From Odontesthes bonariensis (Eukaryota; Chordata; Actinopteri; Atheriniformes; Atherinopsidae), in contig NC_134526.1 of NCBI RefSeq assembly GCF_027942865.1, positions 11,936,284 through 12,000,283 of the forward strand: a DNA stretch of 64,000 nucleotides. The letters are read 5' to 3'. Made by a program: the position numbers and the translations under genes. Below, in pieces: positions 36,738 through 63,982 of this stretch. The notes beneath the pieces were generated by a model that had not been told where the DNA came from, ran no database searches, and saw only the letters and a program-made list of their open reading frames with translations. How positions within the stretch are numbered: position 1 is the stretch's first letter; each line of letters starts with the position of its first letter.

Positions 36738-37178
36738 CTCAGGTGTCACAGCAATAGCATCTCTGGTCAAAGCTCGCTGAATAAAAGATTCATGTGCACT
36801 TGGAGAGACAAAGCAGCACTCCAATCAAATGACTCAAAAGAGGAGAGAGAAAGCTACCCTCTAATCTCAGACCCACAGATTAGACCGTCAGAATAATGTG
36901 ACTCATGGAAGGAAAAGCCCAAAGGCGATTTTAAGACATGGAAGTGCTTCTGTTTTGCATCAAAAAGTTACTACCAGATGAAAGTTGATGTCATCATGGG
37001 GTCAAACATCCCATAAATGTTTCACTTCACTCCACTGGCATCTGTCAGCATGTCCGTACAGCATAGATGAATTTCATCTTACAAAGAAAAAACTGGGAAC
37101 CAACATGGTTTAACGATGTAGCAGCTACATTTAATTTACGTGTGGCCTATGATTTGAGACTGGTCAACAACAATCAGT
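36738..37178 (+). other. gper1: 5' UTR part of the gper1 coding exon
   Basis: A polypyrimidine tract, CTCTCACTTCCACAG, ends at 36737 and forms a good splice acceptor. The 441 nt up to the gper1 ATG contain several short upstream ATGs and would be the 5' UTR carried on the coding exon. Confidence 0.5.
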
Positions 37179-38243
37179 ATGGAAGGGCAGACATCTGCTT
37201 TGGTCTGGATATATGATAACACTACAGAGCAACTGAACACTTCACATGAGTACAACACTACAGATTTGAGTGAAAACTCTGACAAATACCAGTCTTACAT
37301 TATTGGTCTCTTTTTGTCCTGCTTGTACACTATCCTCCTTTTTCCTATTGGATTTATTGGTAACATCTTAATCCTGGTGGTGAACCTGAACCACAGAGAG
37401 AAGATGACCATCCCTGATCTCTACTTCGTTAATCTGGCTGTGGCAGACCTCATACTGGTGGCAGATTCCCTCATTGAGGTTTTCAATCTGAATGAAAAGT
37501 ATTATGACTACGCCGTCCTCTGCACCTTCATGTCTCTTTTCCTGCAGGTCAACATGTACAGCAGCATCTTCTTTCTCACATGGATGAGCTTTGACAGATA
37601 TATTGCCCTCGCTAGCTCCATGAGCAGCAGCCCACTGAGGACTATGCAGCATGCCAAGCTCAGCTGTGGCCTCATCTGGATGGCCTCCATCCTGGCCACC
37701 CTTCTGCCCTTCACTATTGTACAGACTCAGCACAGGGGTGAGGTGCACTTCTGCTTTGCCAACGTTTTTGAGATCCAGTGGCTTGAGGTGACCATTGGCT
37801 TTTTGGTGCCCTTCTCCATCATTGGTCTATGTTACTCTCTGATTGTGAGAATCCTCATGAAAGCCCAGAAGCACCGTGGACTGTGGCCACGGCGGCAGAA
37901 AGCCCTGCGCATGATTGTGGTGGTAGTTCTGGTGTTCTTCATCTGTTGGCTGCCAGAGAATGTCTTCATCAGCATCCAGCTGCTGCAGGGCACAGCTGAC
38001 CCATCGCAGAGGACTGTTACCACCCTGTGGCATGACTACCCCCTCACAGGCCACATTGTTAACCTGGCAGCTTTCTCCAACAGCTGCCTCAACCCCATTA
38101 TCTACAGCTTTCTAGGGGAAACCTTCAGGGACAAGCTGCGTCTCTTCATTAAACAGAAAGCCAGCTGGTCAGTAGTAAACCGTTTCTGCCACCATGGCCT
38201 CGATCTACACCTCCCTGTCGGGAGCAAAGTGTCAGAGGTGTGA
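37179..38243 (+). CDS. gper1: G-protein coupled estrogen receptor 1
   Basis: A 354-codon, single-exon class A GPCR closely matching vertebrate GPER1 (375 residues in human; the difference is mostly in the N-terminus). The extracellular N-terminus has three NTT/NTS glycosylation sites. TM1 reads [22 protein letters not shown]2 follows [22 protein letters not shown]3 ends in an intact DRY (FDRYIALA); TM6 contains [15 protein letters not shown]7 carries [20 protein letters not shown] with the NPxxY motif. The C-terminus ends VSEV, keeping the type I PDZ-binding pattern S-x-V (SAV in human). GPER1 mediates rapid, non-genomic estrogen signalling through Gs/cAMP and EGFR transactivation, at plasma and internal membranes; in fish oocytes it maintains meiotic arrest. 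The start is the first ATG of the frame. It follows gpr146 about 10 kb away on the same strand, as in the mammalian 7p22.3-type cluster. Confidence 0.98.
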
Positions 38244-43016: not shown

Positions 43017-46000
43017 ATGCCGTCGGTTTCGAAAACGGCGGCCAATGCGTCTCCTCAAACCGAGAAACCTACCCACTATACGTGAGTAACGCTGCTGCCA
43101 AGAATCAACAAAACTTCTTGTTGCCCAAAACACTACTTGGATGTGCACTTTTGTGCATTTGCATTCGTAGCGTTTTTCAACTCTTGTGTGTGCGTTGAAA
43201 ACATGGTGCTTTTCCTGGCTTTGTGACTACCTTACGTTACATGGCAAACATCGACTGCTAACATCAGCGCCAAGGCAGGAAATACGGACATCTTAAATCA
43301 CCCGTTTACCAAACCATTCGTTATCGGAATTGTTTAAAAAAATTTTCATGGAGTTGAAGAACGGTTTTGAACCGTCTTTTTAACATTGTATCGTCATTTT
43401 GGTCCGCTAAATGATTAGCCAGGAACTCGCTAACCAGTCTGCTTGTAAATAGCTCGGCCTTATTTTGAGTTCCCTCTTACTACGCACATTTATAAACGTA
43501 CGCTCAGATGTTTTAGCAAGTGTTACGACGGATTTTGTGCGTAGTGTGCACCCAGAATAGCAAGCTAACGTTAATGACCCAAAAATCTACTTGTGTACAA
43601 GGCTGCAGTCGAACCAGCTGAGCACGACACCGAACCGTGCTCTTTTAGTTGCTTTGGGTTCACTCTTCTGCGTTTAGCCATTTCAAAACTCGGCTCACGA
43701 CACGAGATTTTTGTTTTTTCCTCACTGTTTCAGATACTTGAAGGAGTTCAGGACAGAGCAGTGCCCGTTGTTCCTCCAGCACAAGTGTACACAGCACAGA
43801 CCCTTTACTTGCTTTCATTGGCATTTTCTTAACCAGCGAAGAAGGCGACCCATAAGAAGGAGAGACGGAACCTTCAACTACAGCCCCGACGTGTACTGCA
43901 CGAAGTACGATGAGACCACAGGCATTTGCCCAGATGGAGATGAGTAAGTCCCCGTTACACTCAGTGCCGTGTTGCATCTTTATGGGCGCGCAGCAGCTCA
44001 GAAGATGACAGGTTTGCGATGAATTGATCAGTCATGGTTAGTGTTTGTGTCTTTGCCAAGCAGCCTGTGTTGGGTCATGATCCGGCACAATGCCGTGGCT
44101 ATGCTGCTGCTTTCTGCAGCACTTTGTCGTTGTGTAGTCCAATAAAGTAGAATAATCTAAGGGTTGTTTATTAACTTTCCTTAAGAAGAAAGAGCTTTTT
44201 TTTTTTTTTTTTTTTAATTTGTTACGAGTTCTTATTTGTGTAAAAACGACAATGAAAGCTAATTTGATGCATTAATGTTTACTTCACAAAGGTAGTGATG
44301 TGTGTTCGTGTTATAAAGATAAACTCTACAGTTCTGCTGGGGTTTTTTTTGTTACATTGGAAGAGAATTTTCCGATGCATGATTGCATGATGATCTGCAT
44401 GATTGAACCTCTTTTTCTAGTTGATTGGCTATTTAAAAGCTTGTCTCTTCTCTCCTGTTATTCATTTGAGGCAGAATGTATCGTGACACAGACATTTTCG
44501 TCCAAAAACGTAACATTTTCAGGAATGCCAGTCTCCCACGGTGTCCCGTTCACAATCAGATTCCATTGTGTTTTTCTGAATGTGTAATTATCAGCTGTAA
44601 TGCGGACGGGATATGTGCAAAGCAGTTCCTAAACATTTTCGCGAGGGCTGTTGGTGTCGGAGGACGGGACCATTTATGTATTGACTGTCTGATACAGAGC
44701 CTAAACACGGGGATTGTCAAAAAGAGGCGGTGGCGGCACCCTCAGGAACACCGCCACAGTGTGTGACGGCTAATTTAAAATGACAAAGCATTTGAGTGAG
44801 TAAAAATAAGGCTTAGAAAAAGAGAAATGGAATTATTAAACTATTGGAAGATGCACACTGCAGTCCTTACAATTTCTCCTCTTCTAATGGCAGCTATTTT
44901 TGTATGACCTTGTGTGTTGCTATAGCAACTGTTGCTGCTCAAGAAGGGAAATTTTGGTTTATTCAAGAGGCTTATTGGCTGTACATTTCTTGAGGCATTG
45001 CTGTTGTGTTAGGCCTGCAAACATGCTAGAATCCCCCTTTTAATTAAATGTTTAATCCTCATGTTTTTATAATAATATTATTAAAATTTTAGGTTTAAGT
45101 CGTGCTCGACAACGATATTTTATGCTTTAAAAGTGACGCTCCCATTCTAAATGTGGAAAAATGTTACGATTGGTCAGGCCTTTATGTAGATTACTACAAT
45201 GAGATGCCAAGTTGTTTTTAATAATTCATTTTATTTGGGCCAATTCATGAGATATCTTCATTTTGTGTGCCTGTTCCCACAGCTGCCCTTATCTGCACCG
45301 GACGACTGGTGACACAGAGCGCAAATACCATCTACGGTATTACAAGACTGGCACTTGTATCCATGAGACGGATGCTCGAGGGCATTGTGTGAAGAATGGC
45401 CTCCACTGTGCTTTTGCTCACGGGCCACATGATCTCCGACCTCCAGTCTATGATATCAGGTGACATGCAAAGCAAATTGTTGCTATTCTTATTCCTGGCA
45501 AGCTTTTTTCCCCAACGATTCACAATGTAACAGGCAAATCAGCCTATTTAGGCGTACATCAGCCCCATATGATAGGGAATAGCTCTGTTATGTGGGTTTG
45601 GAATAATTGTTTTGTTTGTACTGGGGTTTTGAGGACTCTATGCATTTAAAAAAGTTGATAACCCCCCTGTAAATAATAACTTATTACAATTGGTTCTCAG
45701 GGAGATCCAAGCACAAGAGGCCCTCCAGAACGGTCAGTTGGGATCTGGGGAAGGTATTCCTGATTTGCAGCCTGGCGTACTAGCCAGCCAAGCTATGATT
45801 GAGAAAACTCTAACAGAGGATCCCCGATGGCAAGGTGAGTAAATCCCACTTAAAGCCTGAGAAGGTGTGTTTATGATCAAACAAAGCATACTTCAGTTAC
45901 AGAGGAAACGACGTAATACTCTGTGACTCTTTCTGCAGATACCAACTTTGTTTTAGCCAATTATAAAACAGATCAGTGTACTAAGCCCCCAAGACTATGC

Positions 46001-56127: not shown

Positions 56128-59100
56128 TTACGGCGCTGCGGTGTCGCAGCTCTCAGGAGACGAGGCATCGAATAGGTAACGTATCAGTTGTTTGGCCTGG
56201 AGGAAGAAAAGATTGTAATTAAGACACTGATTCTAGTTAGTTCAAGACACACTTTGTTCATCTTTTTAAGAATAAACACAAACCTAAAACCAAAACTTGA
56301 ACTCTGAAACATGTCATTATGTATGATCATTTACCAGTATGTAAGTATTTTACCTCGTTTTCACTTTCTGGGTAGACGACCTTTTTCCCCACTTGTTCTG
56401 ACAGGTCTGGCCTGTCCTGGTAAATTCTGCAGTGGTGGTGAAAGACAAAAGGGGGGAAAGTCACACGTTGAAATTCTAAACAAAGCAAAAAAGATTTGAG
56501 CTGTCTTTTTCTGTACCTTTCGAGCATCGGCCTAAGGCCAGCCACAATCATTTCCCCTTGAAGAGCCACGATGAGGCACCAGGCGGTGTAAGCATAAGCC
56601 ATCTTTTAACAACACAGGAGCAGTGAAAATTAACGGCTGACAACACTGTTTGTGGAAAGAAGCGCCGACCACATGACTCACCTTCGCTCTTCCACCTAAC
56701 GACACTGTGAGTATCTCAGCGATATGTTTCCGCTGCTCGTTGTCCAGTATGCTCATTCTTCCTGCCACCAGATGGCAGCCTGACCTCAGCAGCTGCTCCA
56801 CAATCTCCAGCTGGGAATGCGTTTGGCTGTGTGGTGGAGCTTTTAAAGGTACCAGTAAGCAGGTTGTCTGCCACAGGGCTCTGTGTATCAGGGACCCTGG
56901 TACCAAAAAACAAACAAACAGCCAGGACATTTATTTTATGCACAGAGGTCACTTGGAATAGAGTAATATTTCAACATCATTTCTCGGAGATCCACTGCCC
57001 AAACCCAATAAATGATTAAATAAGATGCAAAGTTCAGTGTTTGACTCTAAAGTAAATTGTAATGCCAGAATGAGGAATATTTGCATGATTATGTCTACAT
57101 CACTAAAGCATAGCGGCTCTCAACTGAATGAATGAATGAGTTAATTTAAAGGACAGCAGGCAATACCATAAATCATTGCCATTTCATGAACAACAACAAC
57201 AAGATGGTTACATCGGATTTAGCAGAAGTGCTATTTTCCATCCGTAGTCCTGAATGGGGGATGGGGTAAGGAGTACAATTATGTATTTTTTCTTTTCTTT
57301 ATTTAAAAAAACAACATAATTACCAGTGGGTCTATTTTAATCATTTTAATTTCTTCATTTCCGAATTATACATTTTGACTAATATTTTATTTAATATTTT
57401 CTTTAACAAAAAGTCTTTAAGAAGCCTGATTAAAAGAAAAGATAAATAAAATAAAATAAAAAACCGAGTTGTTAAAAATTACCCAACAGCCTCGTGAACA
57501 AAACTAGAAAAGTAACCCACACCTCCATGTGGTCGCAGTGCCGACAGACTGTCCTGTGCCACATTCAGCGTGCAGCTCTGTTTGCGCTCCGCAGATGCCA
57601 CAGGGTCTGAACACAAAATCGGTATCTGGAAAAAGAGCAGAAACTGTATTCTATCCATAAAAAGTGTAACCAAAGTTCTAAAAATAGTGTAACTTTGAGA
57701 CCTTGTCACTGTCGGTCATATGCTTAATATGCTTACCTGTTCCTGTCTCATGGTGCTGGTCTCAGTACAGCAGAGCCCCTCGGGGAAAAGGGCCTTCACA
57801 TCCTTGATTGCTTGTTGATATGATCTTGATCCTGTAAAATGAGTGGCTGACCTTTTAAACGTGCAGTAACGTTAGCGTATGTGTACTAATGTGCTGCTAA
57901 GGCCACTGTTAACAGGTGCTGTAACTAGGTCGTACCATAACAGGTCAACCATAGGGATGCGTCCTCTTGGCGCAGCACGTCCAGCAGCCTCTTCACAGCG
58001 TTTTCTCCCCGGAGGCAGAGAGCAAGGGAGCCGGAGCGCAGGTACTGCTCACTTTCTGCCAGCAAGTGTGAAGTGGCATCACTTTTGTTCTGGGTCACTA
58101 CCCGCAGGCCCGCCATTGTGAGGCCACTCTGCTGGAGCTCGCAGAATATTTCTGCCAGAGCGTGATTCCAGACTCTCGGTTTGAACAGGCACACTGTGAA
58201 CAACACCTGTCGGTCTGAAAGAAAAAGCACCGACGCTCTAAAGTATCTCAAGCAATACCAGCATTTCAATAACATCCCTCAAGAGATGGGGACTCTGATT
58301 GCATGTATTTGCACAGCAGAGCAAACTTACCAAGAATTATTTCATGATCAAAAAAAAGGAGTGAGGCCTGTCTGAGGGCCACCTCTGGTGTGGGTGACAT
58401 CAGGACGGTGAGATTGTGAGGGTAGCTGAGCAGCAGACGCTTCCTCGTTGAAGAAAAAGCATCTATCGCTCTCAGAGCACACACTAGAGCAGACGTTGAC
58501 ATCAGATCTTCCACGCTTTTCTGGAAAAGCTGCTCTCCCACCTCGTAAGGACTCAGCTCCTGGGCCTGATGTCGGGTCAACACAGGCAGCCATTTCAGGC
58601 CAAGAAGCTCCAATCCAGCATGTCGCGTATCACCTAGAGTACAGAGTAACAAAGCATTGCAAACAACGAAAAGTAAGGAAGGGGTTACATTTACTGCTAA
58701 TCTGTTCATTCATTAAACCATGCATGTTTTTACATTTGTTGGACTGTTTGGAATTGGTGGGAGCAGTAAACAAAATCAAGGACAGGCTGCATTCTCAGAA
58801 ATTCCACCCACCCTCTGATCCTTGGGTAAGAACTCTGTGTAAAAGGTTCAGATTTTGGCTCATGTCCTTCCCACACAGGGTCAAAGTCAGCACCTGTTCC
58901 GCGTCAGACTCGGGTGAACACTTACGATGTGATAGTATCACACCGGATGGATTTGGCACAGCCCACATACGCCTAACTAAAAAGAAAACGTCTCTTAAAC
59001 ACAGACAACGATAATAGTGGATCATTGCTGGGACACCGTATACATTGTGCTTACCAAAGATGTTGAACATGTTCTTGTTGTATGGAGCGGTGTGGAAGCA

Positions 59101-62100
59101 TAAGCTCAGCTCTGCTGAGTCGAGGCAACCCAGTAACTTTTGAGCCCTGAATTCTCTCATTAGGGCTGAAGCAATATAACATAAGATCATGGTTAAACGT
59201 GGAAATAACAAGAGTCTCGCTGTATCTTTTCAAATGTAATTTGACAGAAGTCATTTTTGTTCCCTGTAAAACATTAACATGGAATTTGAGACCTGATGGC
59301 AGAGTAACACTGTGGCGGGACATGTTCTCTTTCCGCAGTAGTAGCACAAGGCAGTGTGAGGGCTTCAGCTCTGCCTGATCTGGAATGGAAGGAGGTGGAC
59401 TGCAGAATACAGTCACCTGCAAGGATGTAAAGAAACCATCAAGACATAAACAAGTATAGGAAGCGATTTCTGTTGTTTCTATTGTGACAGTAGGTTAAAA
59501 AAAAAGCCTTATATCATCTTCTTGCTGTTTCCCTCGAGACACAGTCCTTCTGACACGACTGAGTGAATGGTTCTACCTGTTGGCCGGTGAGTCCCAGGAC
59601 AGTGGCTGCATTGCTCTGAAGCTGCAGCCTCTGCAGCCCCATGAGGCTGAAACCCCTGCGTTCACATGTAACCAGCACTTGTCCATAGAAACGTGGAGGC
59701 ACAACAGGTGAAACTACGAGGAGTAAGTCCGCTATCAGAGAGGAGGGAAGGATTAACAGTTCGCCCAAAGGGAATATCCATTTTCAGTGCATTGAATGAA
59801 ATGTTGATAAATAAAAAATTCACTCACTAAGGATCATAAAAATTCAAAGTTAAAGATTAAACGTGGACAGAAGCTACTTTGCCCTGAAGGTAATTTTGCC
59901 TTGCTGAAATATACCTTTTGTTGTGGCACACAGCAGAGAAGAAGACCTGCTAATAGTAAACTGACTCCCTCTGATTCTGTCATCTGAAGGTTCAACTCTG
60001 CAAGGAAAATGAGAATGTCTAACATCATTAGACCAAAAATAGGTGACAATATAAAAGAGGCTAAAACTTGTTTTTTTTCTGCTTCTTTGTCCTGTTATAG
60101 TACTGGTTAAAGTCTAAATCTAAAAGTTGATGAGTAAAATTCTGCTCTGTCTGTAAAATGGCCTTCACAGTGCCTGACTTAAGCGTCACTGGAAATCTGT
60201 GGAGACCTCATAAAGGCTATAGATGAAATAACTTGTATCTTCTAAAGCTCGTTTGTTGCAGTGGTTAGACTTAAATTGCCAACACAAATGTAACGTTGTT
60301 GAATGACTTTTGCTCCTGTTTGCTACATTCACAGCAGACCTGCTCAGGTGCCGGTTGGGATTCTGTGCACTTCCTCCTTGAAGTCTTCCTGAAAACCACA
60401 AGCACAGCTCCCTGTGGACCTGACCGGTCAGCTGAGAGCAGTGAATAAGGGAAGGCTCTTGATTTCTGACGCCCCGAAAGTCGACAGAAGTTTCCTCCGT
60501 CTTCTTGAGCAGCAGAGGACGTAAAGCGGCAGTTATATTCTTCAGCGATGAATGGGCATGAGGACCCCGAACAGCAAGGGCAAGGACGGGCTGGCAGGGC
60601 TCATCGGCCCTCTGGTTAACTGGCAGAAGACCTGAAAAAGAGAAAGAGTTTTCAAACATCATTTTCATATAGTGAGAACACTGATCTAGCTATCATTGAG
60701 CAATGACCAAAAATAGAGATACTGAATCATTTTGAGAACATATGGCATTAGTTGTGTGGTACCACTTTCACGCAGGAGCCGCTGGGGTGGATAAAGCAGC
60801 CGCAGACCACACACGTCAAGCCCCGAGTCAAGGAGCAGATGGAGGGTGTAGTGTGTTATTAAAGGATTTTGGAAGAAGCCACTGCACCCCAGAGCCACTG
60901 ATACCTGCTCCAACATTGAAGGGAAAGATAAGTTCAGTTGCTACTAAGCCTAAGCCTCTTACACTAAAAAAAAAAAGAACAAATGTTATTGCAAACAGTC
61001 AACTTTACTGTGGAGGAGCACACACTCACCTCTGTGTGGAGCTCTTGTTTGCTTTCTTTCCCCTTAAAAAACAGTTCCTGAGTTTCAGCTGTCAGCCAGT
61101 AAAACCCTGGACTGAGACCAAATGTTTTATCTATAACCTAAAGTACAAAGCCACAGGAACAAAATCCAGTCAACAAAACAAGGACGACTATGAGCTATGA
61201 GAAAGCTCATTCACTGACTCGTTGACTCACCTTTTTGCTGAAAGTGGTAGAGATAAAACAATTTAAAGAGGATGAAGGTAGGCAGATAGGTGAGGTGAAG
61301 GGTTGCTGATCCAGCAGGCTTTTGAACTGAGGTAACCAGCTGGCAATTGCAGTTAGTGAGGTATCTGACAGAAATCTGCAGACATGGTTGTAGGAGGGTG
61401 CATTGATGTTTAAATCCCTTTTCTATAAAAAGAAAAAAACAGAATGTGTTAAAACGTCAGACTTCTGACAGAACACGTCAAATGTTTTTTAAACTTTCTC
61501 TTCACTTTTGATGTGTAACAGTGATGAGCCACAGCTAAGACATGCAAAGCCAGTCCATTCTCTGTCCTCAACTGCTGAAGTCCTGCAACCCGGAACGGGA
61601 CCTTTGCACCAACCGTATCCTCAGTGTGACACGAGTCTGGGCCAGCCTGACAAACATAAACAAGTCACCAGTAAACTCAGGGTCACGCATGACAAACTAT
61701 TGCCTGCATTAGGGGAGAGAAGCCACTGCCCACTCACCAAAGACAAAAACCAAGCAACTAAAGTGTTGTAGATGTGTGATTTAGTCTCAGCTGAATGCAA
61801 ATGTTTTCTTTTTCCACTAGCAGCTTTCATGCATCCAACCATACCAGGACTGGAAAGGCTGACACTCAGTAGCATCCATCCCTGACTTTCAATGTTTTCT
61901 GGTAGCGTGCTTATTGACTCTTGATGAGAAACCTCCTAAAAAACAAGTTATAGTAAGTATAGGCAAATGTACTGGGCATTAATCTTTAATTCTCTCATTG
62001 TGTGACACTTACAAACTCATACAGAACATCCGTCCTTTCAGCAGCTGGCTGCTGCAGATACACAGATTTGGCTGGACGATGACTTTCCAGCTGCTTAAGG

Positions 62101-63982
62101 ATCTCTTGGTCTTGTTCAGGATGCTTAATGGGTCTCTTCTGTTGGTCACTAACAGATTCAACATCGCAAATAAGATATTTGTCTTTTGTTAATGATGTGC
62201 TAAATAAATATAGACATATTTCACACCTCTGCTGTTGTGGTTCCTGAAAAGAAATGCCCTGAGCGTATAGTGGGCTTTCCATTTTTGGTTTCCTGGACTG
62301 CAGAGGTGAAAACTGCTGATCTTCCCACAGATGGCGTGAGTCATGGCCACATATAGACTCCACAGTGAGAGGTGGCTTCCCCTTCATTTCCTCTGCTTTT
62401 GGACGAACTGTACATTTGTCAGGATGTTTATTCCCATTTCTACTCATCTCCCGCAGTTTTTGAAGTAATACGCTCTTGCCAGTCACTTCCCTGTGAGCAG
62501 AGACGACAACATGAACTGTAACAAAATGAGCTGAAGCCAGGCATGACAAATGTTTTCTAATGCAGTTTTCTATGCTTACCTGCCATTCATTTGGGATCCT
62601 GCGTGATCTTTAAGATTGTGTTTCTTTGCAGTTGTTTTTTCCTTTGGACTGTTGTGTTTGCCAGCCAATTTGAACTCTGATGAAAGATTTGGGGATGTCC
62701 TTACTGGTTTTAATGAAGGATCAGGACATCGCAGGTCAATATAAACAGTTGGATGTTCCTGGTGACTCGTCGGCAGCTCTGCTCCCATCTTTGCCAGTGA
62801 TTTGTTCCACACATTATCTTGTCTGCCAGAAACAAGTGATTACCCTTATCAATTACTATCATCTTACCGTTGTGGTCACAAAACAGTAAGATGACTTTGG
62901 ATGTGACTTTAAGTACCTCACGCAGTTTGGATTTTCCGCAGGCTCCGACACAGACTGGTTATTGCAGAAAGCAGAAAGTCTATGCAGGATATTAGTCACC
63001 TTAGACTGGCTTTCTTCAGCATCTATGAACAGAGAGTGGATTGAAAGTACAGCACGTTTATCCAAAACATTCTGTATGGATGTCAGAATGACTTACCTGC
63101 ATGTGATTTCACAGTTTCAACTGATATACACCGCGGCATTGACAGTCTGTCGAACTTCATGTTCTTGAGGACATCATCCAGATCCCACTGGTCGAGTCTC
63201 TGAATGTACAGATCACAAGTGGAAATTTTTTCGTGTTTATAAAAAAGCAAAGGAATACATTTATCTGCATCATCAGTGACTTCTGAATTCATACGCCAGT
63301 TTCACTGAGCACACTCACTGCAAATGAGAGGATGGGGGCATTGGATTTTGTGTTGTCTGGTTTTAACGAGGCATCAGTCACCACCATACATTTGCTCTCA
63401 CCTGCCTGTAAGGGTTAAGAGAGGGGAAAGGATATTTTCATGCGTCTTGATTCTATTGCACTTTAATCAGGAAGGTGAAAGTTAAACCCACCACAACGGC
63501 AGCGTCAGAGCATTGTGTATACCACTGAGGAGTATCTTCTACAGTTTCAGCATCATCCAACTGTTTTAAAATATCATCTGGCCTGCTTGTCTGTGCTATT
63601 GGTTTCAACTGTTCCTGATTGAGAAAACACACACACACACACATTAAAAAATATCAACTGATTAACATTGTTTGTTTGCGCTTCATGACATCAGCGTCCG
63701 TCTTGGTGGAAGTATATTTCACAAACCTCTAGTTCAGGATATTCTAAAGAAAAACTGAAGTCTTCAGGGACCTCCAGTGAAAGACCAGCTGGTCTTTGAT
63801 GTATGGCGACAATCTCTTGAGTTTCAGGCTGTAATTTCAGAAGAATGCATTATTGGATGGTTTATATGCAATCAAATGTTATTTTTTTTGTTGCGTAGGT
63901 CTTTGTCAGTTAGCAGAAATCACTGCACTTTTAGAATAATAAAAAAAAAAAAAAAGCTTACTGCGGAAAAGTCCATGTCCAT
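56128..63982 (-). CDS. dnaaf8: Dynein axonemal assembly factor 8-like protein with five NDPK-like modules
   Basis: I rebuilt 27 coding exons on the minus strand: 63982-63962, 63828-63727, 63614-63492, 63405-63319, 63199-63097, 63022-62917, 62822-62580, 62490-62013, 61935-61738, 61646-61506, 61422-61231, 61137-61030, 60904-60763, 60631-60340, 59997-59915, 59731-59577, 59416-59293, 59165-59055, 58976-58926, 58633-58331, 58214-57936, 57831-57737, 57625-57523, 56896-56682, 56602-56517, 56426-56354 and 56196-56128. All introns are GT-AG, all phases fit, and the 1360-residue frame is unbroken. ATG 63982 has a good Kozak context (CTACCATGG). Residues 1-421 match DNAAF8/C16orf71 at QWDLDDVL (about 115-122), HPTVYIDLR and GKSVLLQKLR. 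Residues 422-634 are unassigned. Five NDPK-like modules follow (about 635-780, 807-935, 937-1054, 1055-1179, 1214-1360). DNAAF8/Daap1 works with outer-arm dyneins in cytoplasmic assembly foci (DynAPs) of multiciliated cells. Identity rests on remembered motifs. Confidence 0.8.
57737..58214 (-). other. dnaaf8: NDPK-like module 4 (clearest of the five)
   Basis: Residues 1055-1179, two exons. It starts QVLFTVCLFKP (compare TFIAIKPD in kinases, with the lysine kept), then GLTMAGLRVV at 1085-1094 (the G-F-x-[IV]-x-G-L-[KR] strand), SGSLALCLRGENAVKRLLDV (the GPVVAMVWEGxNVV...  strand and helix) and the closing YQQAIKDVKALFPEGL helix. At the place of the catalytic histidine the sequence reads CYGS, so Tyr1147 replaces His and phosphotransfer by the normal mechanism is not expected. 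It probably serves as a folding or docking module. Confidence 0.7.
60340..60904 (-). other. dnaaf8: NDPK-like module 1 (His retained)
   Basis: Residues about 635-779 in two exons. Visible are GLDVCGLRLL (662-671), PVLALAVRGPHAHSSLKNI (kinase strand and helix) and FRGVRNQEPSLIHCSQLTG, which lines up with the kinase G-x-[IF]-R-G...N-x-x-H-G-S-D segment; His745 is in the catalytic position but the following GSD is CSQ. An REL-x-LWF helix closes the module as in true NDPKs. The first strand lacks the usual K-P-D, so activity is doubtful. Confidence 0.65.
63627..63642. repeat. Short (CA)n tract in a dnaaf8 intron
   Basis: Eight CA units just upstream, on the minus strand, of the third coding exon. 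Confidence 0.9.

Follow-up and report, generated by a model that had tools for sequence, protein, structure and literature searches.

A long form of the dynein assembly factor gene dnaaf8 in the fish Odontesthes bonariensis, with a tail of probable, diverged NDPK-like modules

Introduction

Can a gene for a dynein assembly factor that is short in humans be more than twice as long in a fish, and if so, what is the additional part? This question is raised by dnaaf8 on the minus strand of a 64,000-nucleotide stretch of the Odontesthes bonariensis genome (NC_134526.1, positions 11,936,284 to 12,000,283; hereafter the window, whose numbering is used below unless a named locus is given). We find one continuous reading frame that begins with a DAAP1 domain and ends in a long tail resembling nucleoside diphosphate kinase (NDPK, or NDK). 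Our preferred explanation, to which we assign a probability of about 0.55, is that this gene is a long-form ortholog consisting of a DAAP1 domain, a middle region, and a five-module tail that would act as a noncatalytic scaffold for outer dynein arms (ODAs).

The overall architecture is already known. According to Lee et al. (2020; PMC7785291), the Daap1 orthologs of mammals contain nothing but DUF4701, while those of all non-mammalian vertebrates carry DUF4701 plus a long C-terminal extension with an Nme8/Nme9-like NDK domain. Xenopus Daap1 is cytoplasmic and, within dynein axonemal particles, occupies the ODA part; its knockdown removes ODA proteins from axonemes, and the tagged protein pulled down Dnai2, Dnai1, Dnah9, Nme9, and Ruvbl1 (PMC7785291). 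The same authors speculate on a role resembling that of a Tetrahymena NDK protein. Human DNAAF8 is described as mostly disordered, with few known interactions (PMC12633730). Judging from titles and abstract openings, no other paper listed by our literature searches appears to treat the NDK-bearing tail. The central observation here, a long NDK-tailed DNAAF8 that is tail-less in mammals, was therefore published in 2020; what may be new is the number of modules, five, and the degenerate state of their active sites, since the text of that paper speaks of "an NDK domain", although its Figure 5D may show more.

Results and discussion

The gene is an ortholog of DNAAF8 with one open frame across 27 exons

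In the curated model, dnaaf8 runs from 63982 to 56128 and joins 27 exons into one frame of 1,395 residues plus stop, with GT-AG borders and matching phase at all 26 introns. None of the exons contains a stop in the coding frame, whereas each alternative frame is interrupted in 20 of the 27. The exon count, splice borders, and open frame of a preliminary description of this DNA thus stand, and its length of 1,360 codons was slightly low. Automatic exon chaining recovered 22 exons and 1,297 codons including the stop; it missed short exons, and the curated model was used in its place. Within exon 8, an AT-rich in-frame segment of 78 nucleotides (62149 to 62226) is bounded by GT and AG and could represent a short intron or one that is alternatively spliced; its removal would give a protein of 1,369 rather than 1,395 residues. 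The exon 13 donor has a second in-phase site 2 codons away, which leaves the result unaffected. The main parts of the gene are as follows:

56128 to 63982, minus strand: dnaaf8 coding region, 27 exons, 1,395 amino acids plus stop (curated exon model and frame check)
62415 to 63512, minus strand: Pfam DAAP1 match, residues 76 to 287, with motifs WDLDDVL, VYIDLR, and GKSVLLQKLR (44.6 bits)
61936 to 62012, minus strand: intron 8, 77 bp, separating the DNAAF8-like part from what follows (exon model)
61123 to 61935, minus strand: residues 422 to 603, exons 9 to 12, no Pfam match and not NDPK-like (Pfam and profile comparison)

Searched in its 1,369-residue form, the protein matched the Pfam family DAAP1 (PF15773, DUF4701) above the curated cut-off (27 bits), with the alignment covering profile positions 204 to 436 of 505. 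The three motifs from which DNAAF8 had been recognized in the preliminary description all lie inside this match, and the 421 residues that it had assigned to the DNAAF8-like part coincide with the end of exon 8. We identify the gene, with near certainty, as the fish ortholog of DNAAF8/Daap1/C16orf71. Exons 9 to 12, which follow, are open and in frame; as an additional NDPK module this region was ruled out (profile-profile probability of 0.3 to 0.4%).

Could the DNAAF8-like part instead stop after exon 8, with the NDPK half belonging to a separate, adjacent gene? Such an arrangement would accord with the human protein, whose 520 residues include no tail (PMC12633730; PMC7785291) and whose length the preliminary description had put at about 520, and with the unequal G+C content at third codon positions (GC3) of the two halves (0.557 for residues 604 to 1395, compared to 0.397 for residues 1 to 421 and 0.423 for residues 422 to 603). 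The GC3 of residues 1 to 603 is near the G+C content of the introns (0.36), so GC3 supports coding only for the tail. Against two genes, intron 8 is only 77 bp long, GT-AG bordered, and phase consistent, and introns 9 to 13 measure 83 to 140 bp, which gives a promoter and a polyadenylation site little room; moreover, the non-mammalian orthologs are published as one protein (PMC7785291). A two-gene arrangement is therefore unlikely, to the point of being barely credible, and we treat the DNAAF8 part and the NDPK-like tail as a single gene. A module 4 query against the 945-Mb genome returned this locus in two exons (E values of 1.6e-58 and 1.8e-8) and no other significant match (next best E of 1.9). 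An exon-by-exon genome search with the DAAP1 profile gave one match elsewhere, far below the cut-off, but this search missed dnaaf8 itself, so a duplicate of the N-terminal part elsewhere could have escaped it.

The tail probably comprises five diverged NDPK-like modules

When scored against the NDK family, the whole protein (1,369-residue form) passed the Pfam cut-off (PF00334; 34.3 bits, cut-off 27), so that NDK and DAAP1 matches occur in one protein, as in the long C-terminal form of non-mammalian DNAAF8/DAAP1. The excised modules did not pass: only two of the five gave any signal, both below the cut-off, at 17.7 bits for module 4 and 11.9 bits for module 1. The count of five thus depends on profile-profile comparison, for which a base profile was assembled from 30 bacterial NDKs (56 genomes searched, 52 with a match) and 4 fish NDK composites, and an extended profile by adding 10 fish NDK exon fragments of the ciliary type. 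The five signature motifs listed in the preliminary description were all found, one per module (probabilities from the extended profile):

60378 to 61044, minus strand: module 1, residues 630 to 763, GLDVCGLRLL, with a His aligned at the catalytic position (SLIHCSQ, 60432 to 60452); 15%
58969 to 59918, minus strand: module 2, residues 803 to 936, GFSLMGLQRL, the weakest; 2.9%
58335 to 58899, minus strand: module 3, residues 960 to 1088, GLELLGLKWL; 42%
57755 to 58331, minus strand: module 4, residues 1090 to 1208, GLTMAGLRVV; 90%
56131 to 56879, minus strand: module 5, residues 1255 to 1395, GCHLVAGRMS; 87%

With the extended profile, no shuffled sequence reached the real score for any module (0 of 60 each), and five control pieces from residues 1 to 405 and 422 to 629 reached probabilities of only 0.1 to 0.4%. 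The base profile gave 5.1, 1.9, 20, 59.5, and 71% for modules 1 to 5, with 0, 3, 1, 0, and 0 of 100 shuffles, respectively, reaching the real score. An early profile, built on a shortened template row that missed the end of the fold, had let 29, 4, 1, 0, and 0 of 100 shuffles through and was superseded. Comparison with solved structures by phmmer yielded marginal NDK matches (best E of 0.0088 for module 4 and 0.14 for the whole protein), interspersed with unrelated proteins that scored about as well (with module 4, a lipoprotein at E of 0.07 and a DNA repair protein at E of 0.14). On these scores modules 4 and 5 are secure as NDPK-like sequences and module 3 is likely to be one, whereas modules 1 and 2 are weakly assigned, by their order and by a faint signal that exceeds most shuffles. 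Taken together, these data make it probable that the tail consists of five diverged NDPK-like modules.

No module retains a complete active site

NDPK catalysis relies on a set of Lys, Tyr, Arg, Thr, Arg, Asn, and His residues. In alignments of the modules to one bacterial NDK and one fish NME, the full set was kept in none of the five. Module 1 is the sole module with an aligned His at the catalytic position, and it is without the Lys, the Tyr, the Arg residues, and the Asn. For module 2 the program left the His column unaligned; by eye, the His of LCFHTAPYN could fit. Leu replaces the catalytic His in module 3, and Tyr does so in modules 4 and 5; the loop ahead of the His position is absent from the alignments of modules 3 and 4. 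Module 4 alone retains the first-strand Lys (in KP), and module 5 retains both aligned Arg residues. Because no module retains the whole catalytic set, the tail is probably not a working NDP kinase.

What the tail may do

The retained residues could nevertheless be read as those of an enzyme, in which at least module 1 would transfer phosphate and so supply or sense nucleotides during ODA assembly. SLIHCSQ...ELCLWF in module 1 does align to HGSD...EI.WF of active NDPKs, and the KP of module 4 and the paired Arg of module 5 point the same way; yet no module unites the Lys, the Tyr, both Arg, the Asn, and the His, and the absence of the loop from the alignments of modules 3 and 4 also argues against catalysis. 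Going by sequence, we consider an enzymatic tail quite unlikely. Decay of the tail is only somewhat easier to accept: it would still be translated, under relaxed constraint and heading for the kind of loss seen in mammals, as the slight similarity of the modules to one another and to NDK might suggest, along with the finding that the N-terminal part is enough for localization in Xenopus (PMC7785291). Every one of the 27 exons, however, has an open frame and intact splice sites, and the tail is published as present in all non-mammalian vertebrate orthologs (PMC7785291), so that we regard a relic as unlikely. Substitution for an Nme8 or Nme9 subunit follows a published speculation of Lee et al., and Nme9 is among the Xenopus Daap1 partners (PMC7785291). 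Lee et al. invoke the lack of either Nme8 or Nme9, whereas an Nme8-type gene coexists with the long dnaaf8 in this genome, on C17, which disfavors a simple replacement of Nme8 (Nme9 was not searched for separately); substitution therefore appears very unlikely.

We favor a noncatalytic scaffold. The N-terminal part would recruit DNAAF8 to the cytoplasmic dynein assembly particles, specifically to their ODA compartment, as work by others in Xenopus indicates; the tail array may bind subunits of the ODA or further chains of the NDPK type; and it could retain preassembled arms until their delivery. Several observations weigh against this explanation. Modules 1 and 2 are individually weak, which also tempers the five-module claim of the preliminary description. 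A profile made from the other four modules recognizes only module 4 well: the real score is reached by 4, 12, 5, 0, and 1 of 60 shuffles for modules 1, 2, 3, 4, and 5, respectively. Without the rest of the protein, the N-terminal part of Xenopus Daap1 was localized and retained like the full-length form, and the methods list an N-terminal C16orf71 construct among the pull-down constructs, while the results and a second methods passage give the bait merely as GFP-C16orf71 (PMC7785291). Should the N-terminal part have served as bait, the pull-down partners would be independent of the tail. Since the published bait may have been this construct, we lowered our estimate for the scaffold mechanism from even odds to somewhat below even, and we put it forward tentatively. 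The broader statement that non-mammalian vertebrate DNAAF8 uses five catalytically dead NDPK modules as an outer-arm dynein scaffold, which mammals discarded, is possible but rather doubtful.

Recent tandem duplication of the modules is not supported, since modules 1, 2, 3, and 5 are poorly recognized by the profile of their siblings (4, 12, 5, and 1 of 60 shuffles, respectively). The preliminary description had offered either loss in mammals or a fusion of two genes in fish. Because Lee et al. report the tail for every non-mammalian vertebrate ortholog (PMC7785291), loss fits, being the simplest route to its absence from mammals, and a fish fusion does not. The expectation that the tail would change how this factor is thought to work was overstated, given that the architecture was published in 2020 and that in Xenopus the N-terminal part suffices for localization and retention (PMC7785291).

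Among known systems, the closest is Daap1 itself (PMC7785291), in which an N-terminal DUF4701/DAAP1 domain is likewise followed by a long NDK-like C-terminal extension in non-mammalian vertebrates; the text of that study, however, has an NDK domain where we count five modules with incomplete active sites, and the mammalian protein is tail-less. NME8 also places NDK domains within an ODA-linked protein, but it combines them with thioredoxin, whereas fish DNAAF8 has no Pfam thioredoxin match and far more diverged modules. Tetrahymena Q22MS1 is an NDK-domain protein with a possible role in dynein arm assembly or transport; it is called Tetrahymena specific (PMC12633730), and we liken it to fish DNAAF8 by description only.

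The surprising gene model is thus that of a genuine full-length dynein assembly factor, and the question is sharpened to the role of the tail, its dispensability in mammals, and the choice between scaffold and enzyme. Given the largely disordered state described for human DNAAF8 (PMC12633730), what it lacks would be the folded part, whose function is testable in fish or frog. If the tail is a scaffold, mammals must perform that ODA step by other means.

Other NDK genes and neighboring genes

A search of the genome for NDK exons gave at least 22 matches with E values of 0.001 or less. The Nme8-type gene on C17 has a WCGPC thioredoxin-like exon (locus L130, 8276 to 8620) that is followed downstream, on its own strand, by several NDK exons (locus L011, 2071 to 6257). 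A scan of viral contigs found no NDK relatives, and an Rfam scan of the 64-kb window gave no family at threshold. Three further genes or frames were observed near dnaaf8:

43678 to 43947, plus strand: Unkempt-type zinc finger exon (Pfam zf_CCCH_5)
37158 to 38243, plus strand: rhodopsin-family seven-transmembrane receptor, which we take to resemble gper1
locus L010, 2616 to 4373, minus strand: long leucine-rich repeat frame upstream of dnaaf8 on the same strand, presumably igfals (named without a family search)

Human 16p13.3 holds UNKL, IGFALS, and C16orf71.

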